Part shown: in pieces, positions 1-10,041 of the stretch
Layout: each line of letters begins with the position of its first letter
How positions within the stretch are numbered: position 1 is the stretch's first letter
Made by a program: the position numbers and the translations under genes
Notes under the pieces: generated by a model
Told to the model about the DNA's origin: nothing
What the model saw: only the letters and a program-made list of their open reading frames with translations
The model's database searches: none
DNA from: Brevibacterium paucivorans
GTDB taxonomy: Bacteria; Actinomycetota; Actinomycetes; Actinomycetales; Brevibacteriaceae
Assembly: GCF_016907735.1 (NCBI RefSeq)
Contig: NZ_JAFBCP010000001.1
Location: 1,550,001 to 1,614,000 of the forward strand
Length of the DNA stretch: 64,000 bases
Reading direction: 5' to 3'

Positions 1-234
1 GACAGGTTCCCATTTGTGTTCTTTTGTTCTGAATTGCAACCGTTGCTCGTTTTGCGCTGGCCACACCATGAGCGCTTGCCCGGTGCCTGCTGTTTCTTCG
101 ATCCGTTGCCACAGCAGCTCCCTGACTCGCGCACTCACGTTGCCAACGAAAACGCCTGCTGAAACCTCAAGCGCCCACTTGGTTAAGTCGCCTCGTAAGC
201 CGGTTGGGCATGACGAAAGCACAATGACAATCAT
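1..234 (-). CDS. cas2: CRISPR-associated endoribonuclease Cas2, type I-E (partial)
   Basis: This gene is cut by the left edge; about 78 N-terminal residues are visible. Reading from ATG, the protein starts MIVIVLSSCPTGLRGDLTKW and continues with VFVGNVSARVRELLW, a hallmark of the I-E (CasD-like) Cas2 family. Cas2 dimers bridge two Cas1 dimers in the complex that inserts new spacers. The start codon overlaps the cas1 stop by four bases (ATGA), so the two are translationally coupled. The usual I-E protein is roughly 95-115 residues, so only the C-terminal tail is missing. Identity follows from both sequence and its position last in the operon. Confidence 0.93.
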   Translation of the reverse strand, partial: MIVIVLSSCPTGLRGDLTKWALEVSAGVFVGNVSARVRELLWQRIEETAGTGQALMVWPAQNEQRLQFRTKEHKWEPV

Positions 235-1178
235 GAGAACCGCTCCCAATGGTTCTCGCCGCTGGGCAAACGCTGTTCGCCTCGACCAGACCACAGCGAC
301 AGCTCATCGTTGTAGAAGTACTCTGGTTCGTCTTCAACCTCGCTAGCTTCTAAAAACAACAACTGCAAGATTTTTACGAGCCTGTCCATCACGCCAGCCC
401 GCACTAAACGGTCACGAAGCAACGCCCTTACCGTACGATCTGGTTGACCGTCTGCATGCGCGACAGCATCAAACGCGGCCGGAATACTCGTCTCTGCTTT
501 CACTAGGTCAGCTACGTCATAAGTAAAACTCTGCGTGTTTCCAACGTGCACGAAACCGAGCCCAGGCGTCATTCCCAGTGCATTGATTACAGCTGTAACT
601 GTTCCGTATAGGCATGCATTCGCTGCTGACAGTGCGCGGTTAATGTCGTCCCCAGCGTCGAACGCCGTGGGGTCGAAGTCACGCCTATCCCACTCAACAC
701 CGGTCCGAGCGGACTCATTGCGGTAAAGCGCACGGACTCGAGCTCCTTCGCGCCCCCGCAACTGCTGCATCGTAAGTCCAGATACGTCTTCACCGGGAAA
801 CCGCAACTCATACATTTGCCTCGCGACACGCAAACGTTCTGACTGGTTTGAAAACGCTCGAGCTTGAGCTTCAAGCATCCGCGATGATCGGGCAAGGGGC
901 CGGCCGGTGGCATAGCATCGGACCGCCCCTTCCCCAATCCACGCAACGGTGACACCGCAGCTACCTAGCAACGCCACGGCTGCATGGGACGCACGAACCC
1001 CGGGCCCGATCAGTAGCGCCCCCACCATTGCAGCTGGAATGTGTACGGTGCCTTGCTGATCTGTTGCCGTAATTGCGTTCGAGTCACGATGTAAGACACA
1101 CCGCTCGACATACACAAACGACAGCCGATCACGAACTCTGCCTAGCTCCTTTACAGAAGGCGGAACGATCTCAGCCAT
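231..1178 (-). CDS. cas1: CRISPR-associated integrase Cas1, type I-E
   Basis: Cas1 is the catalytic subunit of the spacer-acquisition integrase. The I-E signature residues are visible: Glu in REGARVRALY, His in GFVHVG, and the acidic pair in YDVADLVK, which together bind the catalytic metal. The N-terminus PPSVKELGRVRDRLSFVYVE matches the start of I-E Cas1 proteins, so I chose the ATG giving MAEIVPPS (315 residues). An upstream in-frame ATG at 1211 would add 11 residues and overlap cas6e by 31 bases. With my start, cas6e ends two bases before cas1 begins. Neither start has a convincing ribosome binding site, as expected for coupled translation. Confidence 0.95.
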   Translation of the reverse strand: MAEIVPPSVKELGRVRDRLSFVYVERCVLHRDSNAITATDQQGTVHIPAAMVGALLIGPGVRASHAAVALLGSCGVTVAWIGEGAVRCYATGRPLARSSRMLEAQARAFSNQSERLRVARQMYELRFPGEDVSGLTMQQLRGREGARVRALYRNESARTGVEWDRRDFDPTAFDAGDDINRALSAANACLYGTVTAVINALGMTPGLGFVHVGNTQSFTYDVADLVKAETSIPAAFDAVAHADGQPDRTVRALLRDRLVRAGVMDRLVKILQLLFLEASEVEDEPEYFYNDELSLWSGRGEQRLPSGENHWERFS

Positions 1179-1180
1179 TG

Positions 1181-1891
1181 CTACACGCGAGCCAATGTCA
1201 TAAGACCGCATCCGTACGCTTTAGCTCTCCCCATTCCGTGACAAAGTGCGTGCCTTAACTGTTCGGCATCAGTTACCTCAAGAAGACCCTCGAACGTCGC
1301 CACCCGATGCACAACGCGGTCACGGCCTGCATGGCTGTTCTTCCGGTTGAACCGCAGTTCTTCACGACGCACAATGTTCACATTTGCTGGGATTCCGTTC
1401 AGCGAAGACTCTTCTCCCACCGCTGTGTTCTGATCATCATGGGTAGAATTTGCGATTCGAAAACCCCACCCTTCTACGCGGTCGAGAAACCACTGCATTT
1501 GGTGTTTCGCTGAAACATGCGGAACCTTGTGGCGTCTGCCCTGCTCGTCCTTGATCGCTTTCACCGGATTCAATGTCACTTTGAAAGCAAACTCCTGACC
1601 ACGCGTCAGACTGTCAAGGAGCCGGACGTAATCCGTAGTCTGGGCAGGGGCTGAAGGCCACCCAACTTGCTCCACAATGTGGTCGAGCCTGGGCAGTACA
1701 GGGGTAACTAAATACAGTGCTGTCTCGGTGTCATTGCGGTCAATTCTCCACAAGATTCGACCATCGTCAGAGCTTTGCAAGTGCGGTGGGACCGCCTTTG
1801 TCGCCATCCCGTGAGTGATATGTGGATCGGCCAGCATAGCGCGACTCTTCCGCAGCTCAGGATTAATCAGTACTTTGCTGAAATACATCAC
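1181..1891 (-). CDS. cas6e: CRISPR pre-crRNA endoribonuclease Cas6e (CasE/Cse3)
   Basis: Cas6e cuts the repeat RNA at the base of its hairpin and stays bound to the 3' handle of the crRNA in Cascade. The 236-residue protein begins MMYFSKVLINPELRKSRAML, the usual strand-1 motif of this family. It ends with the glycine-rich loop GMGRAKAYGCGLMTLARV, the family's best-conserved signature. His residues at about 24-28 (PHITHG) are candidates for the catalytic general acid/base known at this position in relatives. It overlaps cas5e by four bases (ATGA) and is followed directly by cas1. Confidence 0.93.
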   Translation of the reverse strand: MMYFSKVLINPELRKSRAMLADPHITHGMATKAVPPHLQSSDDGRILWRIDRNDTETALYLVTPVLPRLDHIVEQVGWPSAPAQTTDYVRLLDSLTRGQEFAFKVTLNPVKAIKDEQGRRHKVPHVSAKHQMQWFLDRVEGWGFRIANSTHDDQNTAVGEESSLNGIPANVNIVRREELRFNRKNSHAGRDRVVHRVATFEGLLEVTDAEQLRHALCHGMGRAKAYGCGLMTLARV

Positions 1892-2592
1892 GCCTCCTGC
1901 ACTGTCTGGAAAAACGGATCTGCGTACTTCACGCCTACGTCGTTGCGTACGAGCACTGGCTCCGGTCGCACCACTATTCGCGCGTCATACTTGCGATGGC
2001 GCGGATCAAAACTCACTGGAACGTCGTAGACTGACTCACCGATTTCACCTGGACGAGCATCACGAGCAATCGGCAATCGCACCTCTGTAGGAGCATTCTT
2101 GCGGTACTGCTCAGAGGCTTGCCACGGAGCGGCGGAAAGGTCACGTAAGACCTCCTCGGCATCACCCTTATCTACAAGGCCGCCTACCAGGTTCAGAGGC
2201 GCGGGGCATGAACGCCGTCCCATATAGAGCGGAAACTTGGGCTCTCTGAGTGCATCTGACAGGCCGGCTACGAGCTCGTCGTTACCCGTAACAGTGGCCA
2301 CATAAGCGGCATCAGACCGGTAGTGACGCCACGAAAGGTTCGAGCTCTGGGAGCGCGGAGCGCGTGCAGTGTGGAAGTCTTCGACTAGCTCACCTGGCAT
2401 GTCGACTCGCACTGCCAAAGAAAGTGCTGCCAAGTCGTCAAGAGATGCTTCACGAGGTCGTCCTTGCGCTGCTGCCAGCAGTCCAAGCACGCCTGATTTG
2501 CTGGGCTCTGTTTGCGTCGAGCGTCGACTAAACCGTGATCCCACCCCCCACGACTGCAGTGGACCACTGAGGTTGAGTACAAGAGTTTTCAT
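1888..2592 (-). CDS. cas5: Cascade subunit Cas5e (CasD)
   Basis: Cas5e caps the 5' handle of the crRNA in the Cascade complex. The diagnostic N-terminus MKTLVLNLSGPLQSWG, followed by SRFSRRSTQTEPSKSGVLGL, is typical of I-E Cas5. That motif fixes the start at the ATG one base after the cas7 stop, giving 234 residues. A longer in-frame reading of 23 extra residues into cas7 is not supported. A central VATVTGNDELVAGL stretch and the C-terminal SVYDVPVSFDPRHRKYDAR region also fit the family. Strand and spacing place it in the same transcript as the other cas genes. Confidence 0.93.
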   Translation of the reverse strand: MKTLVLNLSGPLQSWGVGSRFSRRSTQTEPSKSGVLGLLAAAQGRPREASLDDLAALSLAVRVDMPGELVEDFHTARAPRSQSSNLSWRHYRSDAAYVATVTGNDELVAGLSDALREPKFPLYMGRRSCPAPLNLVGGLVDKGDAEEVLRDLSAAPWQASEQYRKNAPTEVRLPIARDARPGEIGESVYDVPVSFDPRHRKYDARIVVRPEPVLVRNDVGVKYADPFFQTVQEA

Positions 2593-2593
2593 C

Positions 2594-3736
2594 TTACTCA
2601 CCAGCGCGGTCGTTAAGTACCTCAGCAACCGTTTGCGAAATGTCAGCGATGAGCGCTTCAAAGTTCGTTGACTCGCCGAGGTCGTTCAAGCTTTCGTTGG
2701 TTGCGTCAGGGGCGATGTACCACGAGTGGCTTGGCACGTAACCGTATAGGTGTGAGACCTGCTGTGCTTCTTTGGCCATTGCACGACCAGCCTTTGTGGC
2801 GGTGCTTTCGTCTCCGTCGGGTTTGATTGCAAGTTCGAAAGCGTTGACATAACTGACCGGACGCTTCCGTACGGCTACGCTCACTACGTCAGGAAGTGTG
2901 TGTGCTGCAAAGGAATTCTGGTAGCCAGTTGGCAGAGATTGGATGAAGGTGCGGGCGTACGCTTCCACTGCGCGCAGTGTCGCCTCGACGGAGCCGAGGT
3001 TGTGCACGAGCTGGTCAATATTCAACGTTGAATAACGGTAGAACGTTGACGACATCATTTCGATAGTGCCCATCATGCCTGCGCCGGTTTCTTCTTCTCG
3101 CTCACTTACATCATCGACCGCAGTAAAGAAGTCGAAGTCTGGCTGAGCTTCGGTAACCCCAATCGCGTGTGCTGTCTGGACAGCAGCATCAACGTTAAGT
3201 GAAGCGTCATCAGCGAGCATGCGGCCAAACAAGGACACGTCTACGGCATGCTCTGTGTCAATGATTTCCACAACCTCTTTTTTGCTGAATGCTTCCCCAT
3301 TTTTCTTCACAATGGCATCTGCGAGGCGGTCGAGCTGGTGATTGCCGATGAATACGAGGTAACCAGTTTGTTCGGCGGTAGGAGCGCTGTCTTCGTCGTC
3401 GCTCTTCGCGCTTGGTTTGGGAACCGTTAGCTTCAACCCTGCTTTCTTGAATGCGTCGGCTGCCCGTTTCTGTGCGTCTTCCAGACTCACATCTGGGTTG
3501 AGTTTAATAACTCGGTCTGCAACCTCGGCGGCGATCTGCTTAGTGCGGATGCCCAGCTGTGAATCGTCGAGCAAGTCTTTGAAATCACGCCGTTGTGCTG
3601 ATTTCAATGCTTGTGAAGAAATCCTTTGGCGCCGTTTTCCACCAAAAACGGCGCTCTTGGGTGCACCGTCTTCTCCTCGGTTGATGTTTGAAGGAGGAAG
3701 GGTTTGAAGTGCGTGAAAGTCGATAAAAGTAGTCAT
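2594..3736 (-). CDS. cas7: Cascade backbone subunit Cas7e (CasC/Cse4)
   Basis: Cas7e polymerises along the crRNA (six copies in known I-E Cascades) and forms the backbone of the surveillance complex. The 380-residue sequence starts with FIDFHALQTLPPSNINRGEDG and GGKRRQRISSQALK, both conserved in Cse4 proteins. Further family segments are GMMGTIEMMSSTFYRYSTLN and the C-terminal YVPSHSWYIAP. A GAAAGGT ribosome binding site stands six to ten bases upstream of the ATG. A 26-base gap separates it from cse2, the largest gap inside the operon, which suits a gene that must be made in excess. Confidence 0.95.
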   Translation of the reverse strand: MTTFIDFHALQTLPPSNINRGEDGAPKSAVFGGKRRQRISSQALKSAQRRDFKDLLDDSQLGIRTKQIAAEVADRVIKLNPDVSLEDAQKRAADAFKKAGLKLTVPKPSAKSDDEDSAPTAEQTGYLVFIGNHQLDRLADAIVKKNGEAFSKKEVVEIIDTEHAVDVSLFGRMLADDASLNVDAAVQTAHAIGVTEAQPDFDFFTAVDDVSEREEETGAGMMGTIEMMSSTFYRYSTLNIDQLVHNLGSVEATLRAVEAYARTFIQSLPTGYQNSFAAHTLPDVVSVAVRKRPVSYVNAFELAIKPDGDESTATKAGRAMAKEAQQVSHLYGYVPSHSWYIAPDATNESLNDLGESTNFEALIADISQTVAEVLNDRAGE

Positions 3737-3762: not shown

Positions 3763-4356
3763 TTACTTAGATTCGTTCTTTGGAGTAAAAGCGTAGGACT
3801 GGTAGAACTGTCGCCCCCATTCGCGCTGTATACCGGGCCGACTGTCTGTGCGCTGTAGGTGTACGAGGTCGTTTGCGAATCGCCCATAATCGAAACCGAT
3901 GCCGTCAGTACTGAGAAGGCCGACGAGCGAGCGAAGGTGATAGCGCTGAGCATCAAATGTTGTGGCTGTGAGAACGGCATCAAACCGCCTCTTCATGGAT
4001 GCCGTCCGCTGACGAACAAGCTGTCCCGTGGCCTTTGCGAACGGTATTCCTGGCACGTGCATGGGAGTGTTCTTTCCACGTTGATGCACGGCATAAAGTG
4101 TTAACGCGGTGAAAGCTGCCAGTTCGCTGTAGTTGGGTTTGTCAGATGTTCCGGTCCACCGCTCTGGTACAGCTTCCATAGTCATAAACCAGACGTGTGG
4201 ATTGATACCCGGTTCTTCGTCTACGGCTTTGCGAAGTTCTGCAAGCGCACCGCGTGCGCTGGGGACTCCTGCCAGGTATTGCGCCTGTAGCTTGTAGATC
4301 TGTTCGCTGACACGTGACTGCAATGAGTCATCTTTATCTTGGTGCTGCATTCTCAT
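3763..4356 (-). CDS. cse2: Cascade small subunit Cse2 (CasB)
   Basis: Cse2 forms a dimer on the belly of Cascade that stabilises the displaced strand of the R-loop. The protein is 197 residues, mostly predicted helical and rich in Arg and Gln. Recognisable family features include the N-terminal ALAELRKAV segment, LTLYAVHQRG, and LVGLLSTDGIGFDYGRFANDL near residue 150. The TGATG junction with cse1 means the start codon shares one base with the preceding stop. A second in-frame ATG two codons downstream could also be used. This is the least conserved Cascade protein, so identity rests partly on operon position. Confidence 0.9.
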   Translation of the reverse strand: MRMQHQDKDDSLQSRVSEQIYKLQAQYLAGVPSARGALAELRKAVDEEPGINPHVWFMTMEAVPERWTGTSDKPNYSELAAFTALTLYAVHQRGKNTPMHVPGIPFAKATGQLVRQRTASMKRRFDAVLTATTFDAQRYHLRSLVGLLSTDGIGFDYGRFANDLVHLQRTDSRPGIQREWGRQFYQSYAFTPKNESK

Positions 4357-5999
4357 CAGTCCTCATTCTTTTGTGTTAGAGGTTTTTCAACTTGTGTAAG
4401 CTCTCGGATTCTTGCGCGAATCCACAGTTCGTACCGTGCGGCATTGTGAAGTGTTTCGTTACCGTTTTCATCGGTAATAACTACTCCAATAGCTGCTCTA
4501 GGTCCGGCTGCTTCAACTGCGGCTCGGACTGTTTCAAGCGTCACTGTTCTAACAATTTCAAGCCATCGTTTGAGTGCTTCTTCGGCGTCAAAACCAAGGT
4601 TGAGGGTCGAAAGCCAGTGCGTGAACTCAGCTTCTAGTCGGGACATCCACGCCCCTAGAGGAGCTTCGAAGTCGTGGTCAGAAGAGCCACCTAAACTGTG
4701 CTCTAAACCGCGGTAGAACCACCGCAAATTGCCACGAAGTTTGAAAACGATGTCGATCGCTTCAAGAGCACTTTGACGCAGACGCTGTCCGTCGTGTGTG
4801 AGCAATCCCAGATGGATAGGAAGCGTTTCTGAGATTTCATCTGCGAACGAAGACTGTTGCGCGCCATACGTCATCCCCACTAGCCACAGTCCCACGAGTT
4901 TGCCGGCATATGCCTCACCTATCGCAGCTCCAACCTCGCCTCTCAACTGTTCAACCGCAGGCGCCACTTTGTCATTCTGCTGTTGCCCACCGCTCATCAA
5001 AGTCGCTTGTACGCCTCGCCATACTGTTAAGTCGGGGTCCAGGTCTCGCGCAAAGTAGACATCGACGCCCTTTTTCGACTTTGCTTTTGAGTAACGCTGG
5101 GCGGAGTAGGGCTCACCAAAGCAGTTTTGTGGATTAATACGGTCACCATTTGCGATGAGTACCTCATTCACTGTGGTGCCGTCTGCCGACAGAAAGAGGC
5201 GAATGCGACGCTGTTGCCACGTGAGAATATCTACAACCCCGTTAGGCTCAGTGAAGTCCGCCAATGTGCGCGGGTGTGCAGTATCTGGTTCTCTTTCCCA
5301 CGGTGCTAAATCTTGCGCAATCGCGGATGTGCCATCGGGGAAAATTGCCCTAACTGGCAGGTTGAGAAGTAAAAGGTCTTTGAGCGTAGCTCCGGTAAGT
5401 ACGGTATGACCTAGATTCCCTGCCCATCCGGGGCCAATTGGGTAACCTTTTCCACCCTTAATCCGTGGGTCGCCTTCGACGCCTGTCTTGATTCCAGAAA
5501 AGTCATAAGCTTGTCGGTGCACTAACAAACGTGCTGCTAAATCAAGGGGGAGCTGGTTGGCGGTTTCGCGTGTTTGAGTGGAAAAAAGAGAAGGACCAGC
5601 GTCGGGCACGAGCTCTGCTGCTGACTTGTACTCGCCCTTTTTCGTGTGGAGATCAGCCACTTGGAAGAACGGGGTGACTGGCGAAATCAGCCAGAACCTG
5701 TCTCGGTGTTCCTCTAGGTACGCGCAAACTTCGTCACCCATTTCGGCGTCGTCGGAGACCGCCTCCCACAGTTCTTTTTCGGAAAGGTCTGCCCATGCGT
5801 CGAACTGCCGGATCGTCTGAATACAGATGGTCATGAGAAGACGGAAAATAGCGACGTTTTGAGTCGGCGTCTCTCCGTCGAACGTCGCGAGCTTGTCCCA
5901 CCTCTTAAATAATTCTTTGAGGCCCACGACCTCGGCGTCTCCGTGCAGGGTTCTCACTTTTATCCATGGCTCATCCAGCAGGTTAAATGTCGGTTTCAT
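4356..5999 (-). CDS. cse1: Cascade large subunit Cse1 (CasA/Cas8e)
   Basis: Cse1 reads the PAM next to the protospacer and recruits Cas3. The 547-residue protein opens with FNLLDEPWIKVRTLHGDAEVVG and LKELF, the usual start of the family. It contains SLFSTQTRETANQLPLDLAARLL and KGGKGYPIGPGWAGNLGHTVL, the glycine-rich region that lies near the PAM-reading loops. The C-terminal four-helix bundle region begins around residue 400 (FKLRGNLRWFYRGLEHSLGG). Its start overlaps the cas3 stop by four bases. No frameshift or truncation is seen. Confidence 0.94.
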   Translation of the reverse strand: MKPTFNLLDEPWIKVRTLHGDAEVVGLKELFKRWDKLATFDGETPTQNVAIFRLLMTICIQTIRQFDAWADLSEKELWEAVSDDAEMGDEVCAYLEEHRDRFWLISPVTPFFQVADLHTKKGEYKSAAELVPDAGPSLFSTQTRETANQLPLDLAARLLVHRQAYDFSGIKTGVEGDPRIKGGKGYPIGPGWAGNLGHTVLTGATLKDLLLLNLPVRAIFPDGTSAIAQDLAPWEREPDTAHPRTLADFTEPNGVVDILTWQQRRIRLFLSADGTTVNEVLIANGDRINPQNCFGEPYSAQRYSKAKSKKGVDVYFARDLDPDLTVWRGVQATLMSGGQQQNDKVAPAVEQLRGEVGAAIGEAYAGKLVGLWLVGMTYGAQQSSFADEISETLPIHLGLLTHDGQRLRQSALEAIDIVFKLRGNLRWFYRGLEHSLGGSSDHDFEAPLGAWMSRLEAEFTHWLSTLNLGFDAEEALKRWLEIVRTVTLETVRAAVEAAGPRAAIGVVITDENGNETLHNAARYELWIRARIRELTQVEKPLTQKNED

Positions 6000-8900
6000 G
6001 AAAGATCGCCTCCGCAGTCGTAGGGATAGTCGAGGTGTTCGTCATAGAAATCTCCTTCGGGTGCTCGCGTTACAAAATCAAACTCATTAACGTGATCAGG
6101 TTGGACGAATCCAGTAGCAGGTAGATAAAAGAAGTTTCGGCCCAAGAGTTGTCCGCTGAAATCATGTCCGACGCGCAGCAATAGCTGGCCTCTCAGACGA
6201 AAATCGTCTTGCCACGCGGCAACGCCTTGTGCCTCTAATTCGTCAATCGCAGGATCAATAGACCACTCGGGCACTAGCCAGTGCGGAATCTTGACTACTG
6301 ATTCGGCGAGCAGACGGGAAATTTTCCGAGGTGGCAGTTGGGTTTCGCTTAGTGGCACCAGTTCTGTTTCGTTGTCGAGTAGCCATGGCAACGGGTAAAT
6401 GTATCCGTCGTTTTCCCAAAGCAGGATTGCTTCCAGCGTAGGCTGGATATCGCGCACACTTGCGACGGCTTTACGTTGATCTCGATCAGCATCGAGCTTG
6501 CTAGCAGAGCCAAGCGCTTGTGTCAGATCAGCTCCAGCTTTCCGCGGAGTCGGCATCTGAAACTTTTCCGCGCGTACTCGTGCTTCCTTCTTATCGTGGT
6601 CGTAGGCTTTCTTGGCCTCTTCAAAACGAGTGGCCCACACTTCTGGAATGTCTGGTGTATGCGTATAGACGGCTTCAATTTTCGGATAAAGGTCGTGCCT
6701 AATGCACCAAGGGGAACCGTTAACGTGAGTACGCAGAACAGCAGCTGTGGCGAGGAGCAAGTACTGCCCATAAATTTTCTGTGCACCTGATTCGAATTCT
6801 GGAACGGTGGCAGACGAAATTCCATCGCGGTCGAGTCCTCGCACTAGCATTTCGGGTTCTCGCAAGGTCAGGGGCCGGTCGTGCGCAGGTCTCCCATGAC
6901 GATGGAGTCGTCCAGCACGTTGGGCCAACAGGTCAACCGGCGCGAAGTCTGAAACTAGCAGGTCGAAGTCGACGTCAAGAGACTGCTCTAACACCTGTGT
7001 GCCAACCACAAGGCGCCGGAAAGGCCGTTGAGTTTGTGCGTCAGAAGGTTGCCTGCGCCCATTTTTACCGAGGTCGTTTACAAGTTGGCGTTCAAGGCTC
7101 GATCTTTCGGCGATGGTAAGTTGCGAATGAAGCAATACGACATCTTCGCCGTATTCCTTCCTGAGCGCAGAGAACGCTTGTTGTGCCCTAGAGACGGTGT
7201 TGCATACAACTCCCACAACCCCTCCGTCCCTTAGCCGGGTGGAAAGCGCGGACTGCAAATCCTCCAATGAGTCTTCAAGAGTCGTCAGGCGTACCTCTCT
7301 GGACTTCTTTTCAGCCTCGACGGGCATACGTTTTGTGCCAGCCTGTGAGGTGACGGAAACTGATGGGAAAGTGAACGTTTCAGTCGGTTGGGGCAGTTCA
7401 ACCTTTCGTTTCACCCGCTTGCCCTGCGTGGGCTTTTTCTGCTCGACTCCCTCCGTATAAGCTTTCTCAAATTCAGACTGAACCGACGACGCGAGGGTCG
7501 CAGACAACAAGATGACGCTGGTTCCGTGAGCTGCGAGCCATGTGAGGGTTTTCTCCAGGTACGAGCGGGTGTAGTGGTCATACGAGTGAACCTCGTCAAT
7601 GATGACGATTTTCCCCGCAAGTCCAAAATGCCTGAGCGCGACGTACCTGCTTTGGAGCGCCAGCATGAGGACTTGATCTACCGTCGAAACAGTAAATTCA
7701 GAAAGTAGCCCTTTACGCCCGCTGAACCATTGATGGGCAATCACTTCATCATGGTCGGTCCCGTCACTAATCGCACGTGTGCGATGGATGAGCGACTCAA
7801 ACTCAGGACTCAAATGCGCGTTTGAGTGCATGAGGCGAAGAGAATGTGGTGACTCTTGATCCAGCGACTCCACCCAGTGAGTAATGCGGGGCAACATTGC
7901 ATTTGAGGTCACTTGGCTAGGCAAAGCGAAGGCAGTTCCACCTGCGCCCGTATGCCCCGCTGAAATTTCGGCTGCGAGTAGCGCGGCCTCAGTCTTCCCT
8001 CGCCCCATTTCGTCGCAAATGATGAATAGCGCGGGTCCCGTTTGTTCCATAGCTGCTTCAACTGCGACCTGCTGACACTCACGCAGATGAGAGCCTTGGG
8101 GCCACCCAAACCGTCGTTCAAATGGTGGCACGGCGTCGCGTTTTGCTCTCCACGGAGGTGTAAGAGCAAGCTGTTCCAAAGCATCGCTTGCGCGTGACTG
8201 GTCGGATGTGTGGCGCCCACTTTCGGTAAGTTCGAACAGTTCTTGGTTCGACGCGATCCAGTCTGCAATGCTTACGAGCCCGGCCAAAAGCATCTGGTCG
8301 GTGATGTCTAGACCGCCTTGGTTCAGAACCTGTGCAAGCGCCGAAGTTGCCTGTGTGCGTTCGAGGATGTCCTCGACGAGTTCGCTCCATGCGTGTGCCC
8401 ATACGGGGCCATGACGGTCAAGGTACTGGTTAACGGTAGTTAGACGTTCACCACCTAATGGGCCGTCATGCATGGGTAGTTCGCTGGGGCGGCCATGATG
8501 AGCGCCAGCCGCCGAGGTGAGAGTGCAGATCGCTGTGTACTCAGCCTCAGGGAATATGCGGGCGAGCTCTCGTCTGAGAATGGCGTCAGAGGCCAAACTG
8601 TGTGGCGGTTTAAAGGCAGGGTTCACAAAAGGGGTGAAACTGTCGTGTGACATAGCGCGCCGAGCTTGATTCGCCAACCACTCCAGTTCGGGGACGTCCG
8701 CAATTTGATCCGTAAACGTTTTTGTCGCTTTACCGGCATCATGCGTTCCCGTGAGAAATCCGATCAGGGACGTAAGTTGTTTTTGAGTGAGTCGGTTTTT
8801 CCGGCAAAGGCGCTCACGTACTGACTCCGGAATCCAAGAAGCAGAAAGGGTCATACCTACATCTGCGCTGTCACGCAAATGCTGTGGAACCGAAAGCCAA

Positions 8901-9034
8901 AGAGACTCGCGCAGGTGTGCGAATGACGGGTCAGCACTATTGAAGGTCTTAGCCCAAAGCAAAAGCGCTGGACTCGTAGGGGATAGTGCCACATCTGCCT
9001 CCGGTTGCTTCGTTTCCGGGATGTTTAGAATCAT
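5996..9034 (-). CDS. cas3: CRISPR-associated helicase-nuclease Cas3, type I-E
   Basis: Cas3 unwinds and shreds the target DNA once Cascade has formed an R-loop. Domains in order: an N-terminal HD nuclease (LTGTHDAGKATKTF, then AAGAHHGRPSE), and a superfamily 2 helicase with Walker A DEMGRGKTEA, DExH box IIDEVHSYD, LLSATL, and motif VI QRAGRLHRHGR. A C-terminal accessory domain follows. I chose the first ATG (1012 residues); a TTG eleven codons upstream (9067) is also open. Neither has a good ribosome binding site. The A+T-rich TAAATT at about 9090 on the minus strand may be the -10 element for the operon. All catalytic motifs look intact. Confidence 0.94.
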   Translation of the reverse strand: MILNIPETKQPEADVALSPTSPALLLWAKTFNSADPSFAHLRESLWLSVPQHLRDSADVGMTLSASWIPESVRERLCRKNRLTQKQLTSLIGFLTGTHDAGKATKTFTDQIADVPELEWLANQARRAMSHDSFTPFVNPAFKPPHSLASDAILRRELARIFPEAEYTAICTLTSAAGAHHGRPSELPMHDGPLGGERLTTVNQYLDRHGPVWAHAWSELVEDILERTQATSALAQVLNQGGLDITDQMLLAGLVSIADWIASNQELFELTESGRHTSDQSRASDALEQLALTPPWRAKRDAVPPFERRFGWPQGSHLRECQQVAVEAAMEQTGPALFIICDEMGRGKTEAALLAAEISAGHTGAGGTAFALPSQVTSNAMLPRITHWVESLDQESPHSLRLMHSNAHLSPEFESLIHRTRAISDGTDHDEVIAHQWFSGRKGLLSEFTVSTVDQVLMLALQSRYVALRHFGLAGKIVIIDEVHSYDHYTRSYLEKTLTWLAAHGTSVILLSATLASSVQSEFEKAYTEGVEQKKPTQGKRVKRKVELPQPTETFTFPSVSVTSQAGTKRMPVEAEKKSREVRLTTLEDSLEDLQSALSTRLRDGGVVGVVCNTVSRAQQAFSALRKEYGEDVVLLHSQLTIAERSSLERQLVNDLGKNGRRQPSDAQTQRPFRRLVVGTQVLEQSLDVDFDLLVSDFAPVDLLAQRAGRLHRHGRPAHDRPLTLREPEMLVRGLDRDGISSATVPEFESGAQKIYGQYLLLATAAVLRTHVNGSPWCIRHDLYPKIEAVYTHTPDIPEVWATRFEEAKKAYDHDKKEARVRAEKFQMPTPRKAGADLTQALGSASKLDADRDQRKAVASVRDIQPTLEAILLWENDGYIYPLPWLLDNETELVPLSETQLPPRKISRLLAESVVKIPHWLVPEWSIDPAIDELEAQGVAAWQDDFRLRGQLLLRVGHDFSGQLLGRNFFYLPATGFVQPDHVNEFDFVTRAPEGDFYDEHLDYPYDCGGDLS

Positions 9035-9135
9035 CGTACACCAAACATTGATATTGGACTTCGTCAAACACTAAAGAGTTAAAAAATAATTTAGTTCGAG
9101 GTTACCGCATGACTTGAACCGGAAACGAAATGCGA

Positions 9136-9162
9136 ACGGGCGCCTTGAAAGTAGGCGCCCGT
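9136..9162. repeat. Perfect 9-bp inverted repeat (hairpin) upstream of cas3
   Basis: ACGGGCGCC and GGCGCCCGT form a perfect nine-base-pair stem around a nine-base loop (TTGAAAGTA). It sits between the divergent cas3 and def genes. No T-run follows on either strand, so it does not look like an intrinsic terminator. It is directly joined to the CRISPR-repeat-like hairpin that follows. Confidence 0.6.
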
Positions 9163-9188
9163 ATCCCCACAGAGGTGGGGAGTAGATC
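9160..9188. repeat. Isolated, degenerate type I-E-like CRISPR repeat
   Basis: A seven-base arm TCCCCAC, a four-base loop AGAG and the matching arm GTGGGGA lie inside a 29-base unit with four flanking bases on the left and seven on the right. That is the geometry of type I-E repeats, whose stem normally reads CCCCGC/GCGGGG. No second copy occurs one repeat-plus-spacer length (about 61 bases) to either side. It is therefore at most a remnant or an orphan, not an array. A coincidental hairpin remains possible. Confidence 0.4.
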
Positions 9189-9314
9189 GTCTTTGGTACT
9201 TCTTCAAAAACGAAAGATGGCTCATGCCACGTGCGCGGCAAAAGAAACGCGTGGTTCCATATATTCAGTAGCCATGCTTCCCCAGCGTCTCAAACGTTCT
9301 TTGCTCAACACAAG

Positions 9315-9328
9315 TAGAGTTACACCCG
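9315..9328 (+). promoter_or_regulatory. Probable leaderless promoter of def
   Basis: The -10 hexamer TAGAGT ends seven bases before a GTG that is in frame with deformylase. This spacing puts the transcription start on the start codon itself. No Shine-Dalgarno sequence precedes the GTG. Confidence 0.5.
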
Positions 9329-10041
9329 TGAATACTTCCATGACTCAGCCACGCTCCAATGACGGAAGCCATGGCAACGAGATCTCGGCGCAGACCATCC
9401 GCGAACAAGTCGACCGGGCCCTAACCGCGGCTGCGAACAACGACGGCGTCATCCCCATCGTCACCGCAGGTGACCCCGTTTTGCGCACCACCACCGCGCG
9501 CTTTGACGGCCAGATCGACGACGCGACCCTGCTGGAACTGCTCACCGCCATGCGCACCACCATGCTCGCAGCCCCCGGCGTGGGACTCGCTGCCCCACAA
9601 ATCGGCATCAGCCTCAGACTCGCCGTGTGCGAAGACCCGGGCACCACCTCGGCCGAACATGCGACAGCCCGCGAACGCACACCCCTGCCATTCACCGCAC
9701 TCATCAACCCCACCTACAAGCCCGCCACCGACCAACTCGTCGCCTTCTACGAAGGGTGCCTCTCCATCCCCGGCTACCAAGCCGTCGTGGCGCGCCCGCG
9801 CACCATCGCCCTGACCGCACACGACCACGAAGGCGCCACCATCACCAAGGACATCACCGGCTGGGCCGCGCGCATCATCGCACACGAAACCGACCACCTC
9901 GACGGCATCCTCTACCTGGACAAAGCCGAAATGCGCTCCCTGGCCACCGACGAACAAGTCGCGCGCTGGTGGAACCAACCCACCACACAACAGGCAGCTG
10001 CCGCTCTGGGCTTCGAACTGCCCGCCCCACCGGCCCTGTAA
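9328..10041 (+). CDS. def: Peptide deformylase
   Basis: Peptide deformylase removes the formyl group from the N-terminal methionine of new proteins. All three motifs are present: PGVGLAAPQIG (residues about 73-83), EGCLSIPGY (about 142-150) and HETDHLDG (about 187-194), giving the metal ligands Cys and two His plus the catalytic Glu. I chose the GTG preceded by a -10 box; an ATG four codons later is an alternative. The reading frame stays open back to 9130, but that stretch crosses the two hairpins and looks non-coding. A ~50-residue N-terminal tail before the core and a C-terminal tail make it longer than E. coli Def (237 versus 169 residues). Confidence 0.92.
   Translation: MNTSMTQPRSNDGSHGNEISAQTIREQVDRALTAAANNDGVIPIVTAGDPVLRTTTARFDGQIDDATLLELLTAMRTTMLAAPGVGLAAPQIGISLRLAVCEDPGTTSAEHATARERTPLPFTALINPTYKPATDQLVAFYEGCLSIPGYQAVVARPRTIALTAHDHEGATITKDITGWAARIIAHETDHLDGILYLDKAEMRSLATDEQVARWWNQPTTQQAAAALGFELPAPPAL

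Follow-up and report, generated by a model that had tools for sequence, protein, structure and literature searches.

Introduction

The cas-regulating RNAs called CreRs were reportedly described by Liu et al. in Cell Host Microbe in 2023. According to reviews, CreRs are crRNA-like RNAs which let Cascade or Cas12a repress their own cas promoter, and they belong to types I-B, I-E, and V-A (PMC13131331, PMC12737573, PMC12948488). In type I-B of Haloarcula, a 24-nt guide is described as still repressing while interference and priming are lost, and with 20-nt guides, one site is repressed no further than to 44-65% of control (PMC10989794). For E. coli, 5 bp were reported to be enough for binding of Cascade, with more than 18 bp required for interference; off-target binding of Cascade was reportedly without effect on local expression (PMC5904413). 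Guide positions 6, 12, and 18 are left unpaired by Cascade (PMC12871591). When CreR was joined with Brevibacterium, Kocuria, and Actinomyces in a literature search, CreR was absent among the matches listed. Here we describe a candidate CreR located upstream of cas3 in Brevibacterium paucivorans.

Results

We analyzed a 64,000-nt stretch of Brevibacterium paucivorans DNA, referred to as the window (C1:1550001-1614000; genome 2.41 Mb). Its left part carries a cas operon on the minus strand:

5996..9034, minus strand: cas3, first gene of the operon, ATG at 9034, with a TTG start at 9067 also open (Pfam Cas3_HD, Cas3-like_C_2, Cas3_C, and helicase domains)
4356-5999, minus strand: cas8e (Pfam Cse1)
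3763-4356, minus strand: cas11/cse2 (Pfam Cse2)
2594-3736, minus strand: cas7 (Pfam CT1975)
1888-2661, minus strand: cas5 (Pfam Cas5d)
1181-1891, minus strand: cas6e (Pfam CRISPR_assoc)
231-1211, minus strand: cas1 (Pfam Cas1)

The cas2 gene extends past the window edge. The array, at C1 1546.8-1549.8 kb, precedes the left edge of the window and consists of 50 repeats plus one detached copy with a period of 61 nt, in one case 62; read in cas orientation, its repeat is GTGTTCCCCACACCCGTGGGGATGAGCC. The cognate effector for a CreR is present, with cas3, cas8e, cas11, cas7, cas5, and cas6e assigned by Pfam, plus the 50-repeat array. The detached copy (L002 about 6399) is 416 nt away from the final repeat of the array. 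Within the array, a block of four spacers occurs twice (L002 about 9255-9012 and 7913-7670), which is a segmental duplication, and another spacer is also found twice.

Between the divergent genes cas3 (minus strand) and def (plus strand, encoding peptide deformylase), a perfect 7-bp stem with a 4-nt loop is formed by TCCCCAC (9164-9170), AGAG, and GTGGGGA (9175-9181). An earlier note on this DNA had pointed out this hairpin correctly and had assigned it to a single degenerate repeat, the 29-mer 9160-9188. This unit proved to be off register and on the wrong strand; the correct one is 9185-9157 on the minus strand, and it is not alone, as a second degenerate repeat (9246-9218) pairs with it at exactly the 61-nt spacing of the array. 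The elements are as follows:

9218..9246, minus strand: psiR1, first degenerate repeat, CACGTGGCATGAGCCA, with the handle ATGAGCC of the array
9225-9218, minus strand: crRNA 5' handle, the last 8 nt of psiR1, ATGAGCCA
9240-9225, minus strand: psiR1 hairpin TGCCGC-GCAC-GTGGCA, with a 6-bp stem and a 4-nt loop, directly before the handle
9186..9217, minus strand: psiS, a 32-nt guide of array-like length spanning from the handle to psiR2, TCTTTCGTTTTTGAAGAAGTACCAAAGACGAT
9157..9185, minus strand: psiR2, second degenerate repeat, CTACTCCCCACCTCTGTGGGGATACGGGC (9185-9157), with the stem of the array repeat
9136..9162, minus strand: strong 10-bp hairpin ACGGGCGCCT-ACTTTCA-AGGCGCCCGT, directly after psiR2, without a run of T

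Two repeat-like sequences flank one spacer, here of exactly 32 nt, outside the array, an arrangement as in a CreR. Comparison with the array repeat to the left of the window, as the earlier note had proposed, gave a divided answer: the 7-bp stem of psiR2 is identical and the loop is different. On each strand, the whole genome contains 51 matches to the pattern CCCCACN4GTGGGG, namely 50 in the array and its detached copy and one in psiR2, versus zero for the reversed-pattern control. Over its entire length psiR2 is identical to the array repeat at 18/28 positions (15/21 over the first 21), and psiR1 at 14/28. As an unrelated place in the window scores 19/28 and two others 18/28, the identity of psiR2 alone is unremarkable; the case is built on stem, register, handle, spacing, and target. 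The final base of psiR1 is A, at a place where array repeats have C or G.

The RNA of 101 nt from the handle onward folds with z = -5.98, and the fold includes a weaker hairpin within psiS. This self-fold of psiS is a 9-bp stem with G-U pairs (9214-9187, minus strand). In the best fold of a 160-nt piece, psiR1 is paired elsewhere and its hairpin is not formed. The hairpin 9136-9162 is likely to be the end of a small RNA. It was not called by a terminator scan, whose one flag, a weak terminator-like site, spans the junction of psiR1 and psiS (9230-9217); 0.5 such sites per region are expected by chance. A scan of the minus strand for promoters, restricted to the sigma-70 consensus, gave none upstream of psiR1 and none at the target. 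An Rfam search of 8900-9500 gave zero matches up to E = 5, and in a plain repeat search of the first 14 kb of the window, the hairpin did not belong to any of the 20 direct-repeat families listed out of 21.

The mechanical open reading frame of def (9130-10041, plus strand) would cross the mini-CRISPR. Similarity to G004, a member of the genus without a Cse1 or Cas3 match, begins only at 9311, which suggests that the true start of def is GTG at 9328. Just upstream of def, where the window has the cas locus, G004 carries a weak repeat-like sequence (18/28; L039 about 1471-1498, minus strand); possibly, this is a relic, and values of 18-19/28 also arise by chance. When DNA similarity of 9000-9345 was determined in 57 genomes of the genus, only the window's own sequence and 35 nt at the def start of G004 were found. 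A megablast of 5996-9343 against plasmids gave no match.

The guide psiS matches the promoter region of cas3 on its own strand:

9080-9078, minus strand: PAM AAC in the cas3 promoter region
9077-9046, minus strand: protospacer, AAC-TCTTTAGTGTTTGACGAAGTCCAATATCAATG, with pairing chiefly at 9077-9058

Between the end of the protospacer and the cas3 ATG lie 11 nt. With positions 6, 12, and 18 left out, psiS matches this site at 15/17 pairing positions of its first 20 nt, and at 9/10 seed bases. Apart from psiS itself, this first-20-nt score is the best among about 128,000 positions of the window. The score over all 32 nt, 17/27, merely ties with two other places in the window because only 3/12 bases match past position 20. 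A genome pattern was built from psiS alone (first 20 nt, AAN in front, N at the unpaired positions); with up to three mismatches it occurs in the 2.41 Mb at two places, the cas3 promoter site and psiS, and the reversed control gave zero. Another genome pattern had been devised after the target was known; the pattern made from psiS only is the one relied on. In type I-E systems, the base after the 28-nt repeat derives from the PAM. In the array this base is C in 42/49, G in 6/49, and T in 1/49 cases, which fits the target PAM AAC.

Furthermore, related loci were surveyed. Brevibacterium sp. HMSC07C04, Kocuria rhizophila TA68, and Flaviflexus huanghaiensis, which have the closest Cas3 relatives with upstream sequence, share the layout of the window with different sequences; all three have AAC and match at 10/10 seed bases, and the unpaired base 6 is mismatched. 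For the order, 396 genomes were searched with PF09481 (Cse1); 64 matched, 69 places were listed, and 60 regions were taken, which cover the listed places apart from that of the window and those that were weakest or partial. The window itself and 13 loci from a separate set of 16 brought the total to 74 loci; L003, L008, and L015, which duplicate L071, L058, and L073, had been removed beforehand. Conditions were set such that the handle has at most one mismatch, AAN is present, and at least 9/10 seed bases match 40-250 nt downstream, with arrays masked and 300 draws of a permuted handle as control. This rule was fixed after the first cases were known and is thus not blind; the class set serves as the held-out test.

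The rule was passed by 21 of the 74 loci, some of which are without upstream sequence, as compared to a control mean of 0.34 (maximum 4). A perfect seed was found in 15/74 loci (control mean 0.05, maximum 3). L013 passed and was rejected as spurious because its repeat had been read in the wrong orientation; the 20 accepted loci comprise the window, L005 and L006 from the separate set, and 17 of the 60 order regions. With two handle mismatches allowed, 23/74 loci passed versus a control mean of 2.98 (maximum 16), which makes a poor control. An earlier pass with two handle mismatches had given 31 candidate rows, and the matches listed in a first unfiltered survey were mostly chance matches and self-matches of arrays.

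Anatomy was recorded for 21 loci, namely the 20 rule-passing ones without L013 plus L044, which has two handle mismatches and good anatomy. Their PAMs are AAC (14), AAG (4), AAT (2), and AAA (1), AA having been required. The relatives' targets lie shortly before cas3 or cas8e; the unit of L080-L083 precedes cas8e, not cas3. A hairpin of at least 5 bp adjoins the handle in 15 of the 21 psiR1s as compared to 8.8% of random places. L054 contains two adjacent AAC sites (reverse-complement about 1980-2018) with 9/10 and 10/10 seed bases, both matching the local psiS, possibly a double target. In L055 (about 2307-2420), the psiR2 hairpin is repeated within about 75 nt of the first one, pointing to a regulatory mini-array that is longer or has been duplicated.

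Beyond the order, the same rule was applied class-wide to 60 of 86 places from 394 genomes, all 60 outside the order, and was passed by two (control mean 0.18, maximum 2). L123 has a good psiR2 and is convincing; the psiR2 of L134 is not good. Upstream of cas3 and cas8e of E. coli K-12, zero candidates with at least 9/10 seed bases were found, and one of six rows at 8/10 has AAA. Hence, with one convincing case among the class-wide places and no E. coli K-12 candidate, the design looks concentrated in the order of the window.

For pairing statistics, 18 loci were used, one of each near pair (L065, L078, L083) having been removed by hand. Positions 13-15, which were unused for detection, match in 37/54 cases; the unpaired positions 6, 12, and 18 match in 13/54, which is about chance. 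Bases outside the detection rule behave as Cascade pairing predicts. Additionally, each psiS fits its own promoter with 9-10/10 seed bases and other promoters with 3.07/10 on average. Only 13 of 420 cross pairs reach at least 7; four at 10 come from two near-identical pairs, and the cross-fits between the window and Kocuria are 8 and 7.

With psiR2 placed where it best matches the local repeat without gaps, psiS measures 20 nt in 11/21 loci, 21 nt in three, 32 nt in three including the window, 33 nt in two, and 30 and 15 nt in one each. A guide of 20 nt equals 32 - 12, that is, two 6-nt Cas7 steps fewer.

Discussion

The unit psiR1-psiS-psiR2 is, with high probability, a type I-E CreR, a guide RNA with which the Cascade of the host would repress its own cas operon. 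We base this on its anatomy, the genome-unique promoter match with a PAM, the presence of cas1, cas3, cas6e, and the Cascade genes, and the recurrence of the design, with different sequences, in related species; from these we infer transcription, Cas6e cutting, Cascade binding, repression, and relief. A short RNA of the minus strand would run through psiR1, psiS, and psiR2 and end near the next hairpin. Cas6e would cleave behind both repeat hairpins, giving a crRNA-like RNA of 61 nt (9225-9165) made up of the handle AUGAGCCA, the 32-nt guide, and the psiR2 stem-loop. Cascade loaded with psiS would bind AAC and the matching cas3 promoter DNA, 140 nt downstream of the psiS start, and may then hinder transcription of cas3 and of the genes that follow. 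Since pairing mostly ends after 20 nt, the R-loop should be too short to recruit Cas3 for cutting. The regulatory loop as a whole would limit itself and be relieved when ordinary crRNAs or anti-CRISPRs draw Cascade off. The silent off-target binding in E. coli implies that the position in the promoter must matter, if this mechanism is right. In that case, type I-E immunity would have in this unit its own built-in thermostat, one which registers anti-CRISPR attack as well.

The earlier note had offered several roles for the hairpin. Its idea that cas expression is tuned is favored by the evidence, by way of a promoter guide and not by Cas6e cutting of mRNA, and its mention of mini-arrays regulating cas genes in other subtypes was the correct lead. 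It had overlooked psiR1, psiS, and the target of psiS before cas3. An anti-repeat pairing with crRNA, which it also considered, found no support and was set aside: the polarity of the unit is that of a crRNA, and it carries a handle and a guide fitting the cas promoter. Degenerate repeats, here 14/28 and 18/28 identical to those of the array, would also be expected of the relic of an older array that it suggested, a decayed remnant without present function. However, the spacer matches a site with a PAM in the cas promoter of its own host, differing spacers do likewise across many other species, and own promoters are fitted far better than those of others (9-10 versus on average 3.07 of 10 seed bases); we therefore regard decay as extremely improbable.

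It could further be argued that two strong neighboring hairpins between divergent genes, with a folding z of -5.98, are mere leader structures of cas3 or def, serving as terminator, for mRNA stability, or in attenuation, and that their likeness to repeats is accidental. This would leave unexplained why the handle is exactly in register, why the promoter match is unique in the genome, and why relatives share the layout, and Rfam had no match up to E = 5, so that hardly any probability remains with this explanation either. A CreA-like antitoxin, whose guide represses a small toxin gene of the CreTA type sited by chance at the cas locus, would have the same anatomy, CreA being described with an 11-bp seed match at the creT promoter (PMC10989794). 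The protospacer, however, ends so close to the cas3 ATG that there is no space for a separate small gene between them, and in relatives the targets also lie shortly before cas3 or cas8e. We consider such an antitoxin very improbable.

With psiR1-psiS-psiR2 taken as a CreR, the guide lengths in the survey raise a further point. A short-guide CreR variant is possible among the relatives, as far as repeat alignment tells. Tentatively, and with more doubt than confidence, we propose that a CreR with a guide cut to about 20 nt is common among type I-E systems of the order; besides the 32-nt immune Cascade, there may thus be a smaller, repress-only Cascade unable to trigger Cas3. The 32-nt psiS of the window, which pairs over about the first 20 nt, would get there by mismatches. 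The survey makes the existence of natural short-guide Cascades testable. Its roughly 20 natural pairs of guide and target have apparently been selected to bind and not to cut, and they reveal the 6-nt pairing rule of Cascade in evolution.

Compared with known systems, the unit resembles a canonical type I-E array in 61-nt register, stem, handle, and polarity. It differs in having two degenerate repeats in place of at least three near-identical ones and a spacer that fits the host's own promoter. Like the Racrs, it contains a repeat mimic outside an array; Racrs, however, are described as phage-borne single repeats that inhibit Cas proteins (PMC10651486), whereas this unit lies beside the host genes cas3 and def, combines two repeats with a guide to a promoter of its own host, and is not classed as a Racr. 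With CreA of CreTA it shares the degenerate mini-CRISPR, and CreA is likewise described as guiding repression by Cascade through a seed of about 11 bp (PMC10989794); the target of CreA is a toxin gene and that of the present unit the cas3 promoter. CreR, compared here through reviews, is likewise a crRNA-like RNA from a mini-CRISPR with partial complementarity to a cas promoter, and these reviews give no difference in kind from psiR1-psiS-psiR2. The kind is known, and the present unit is probably one more member of it.
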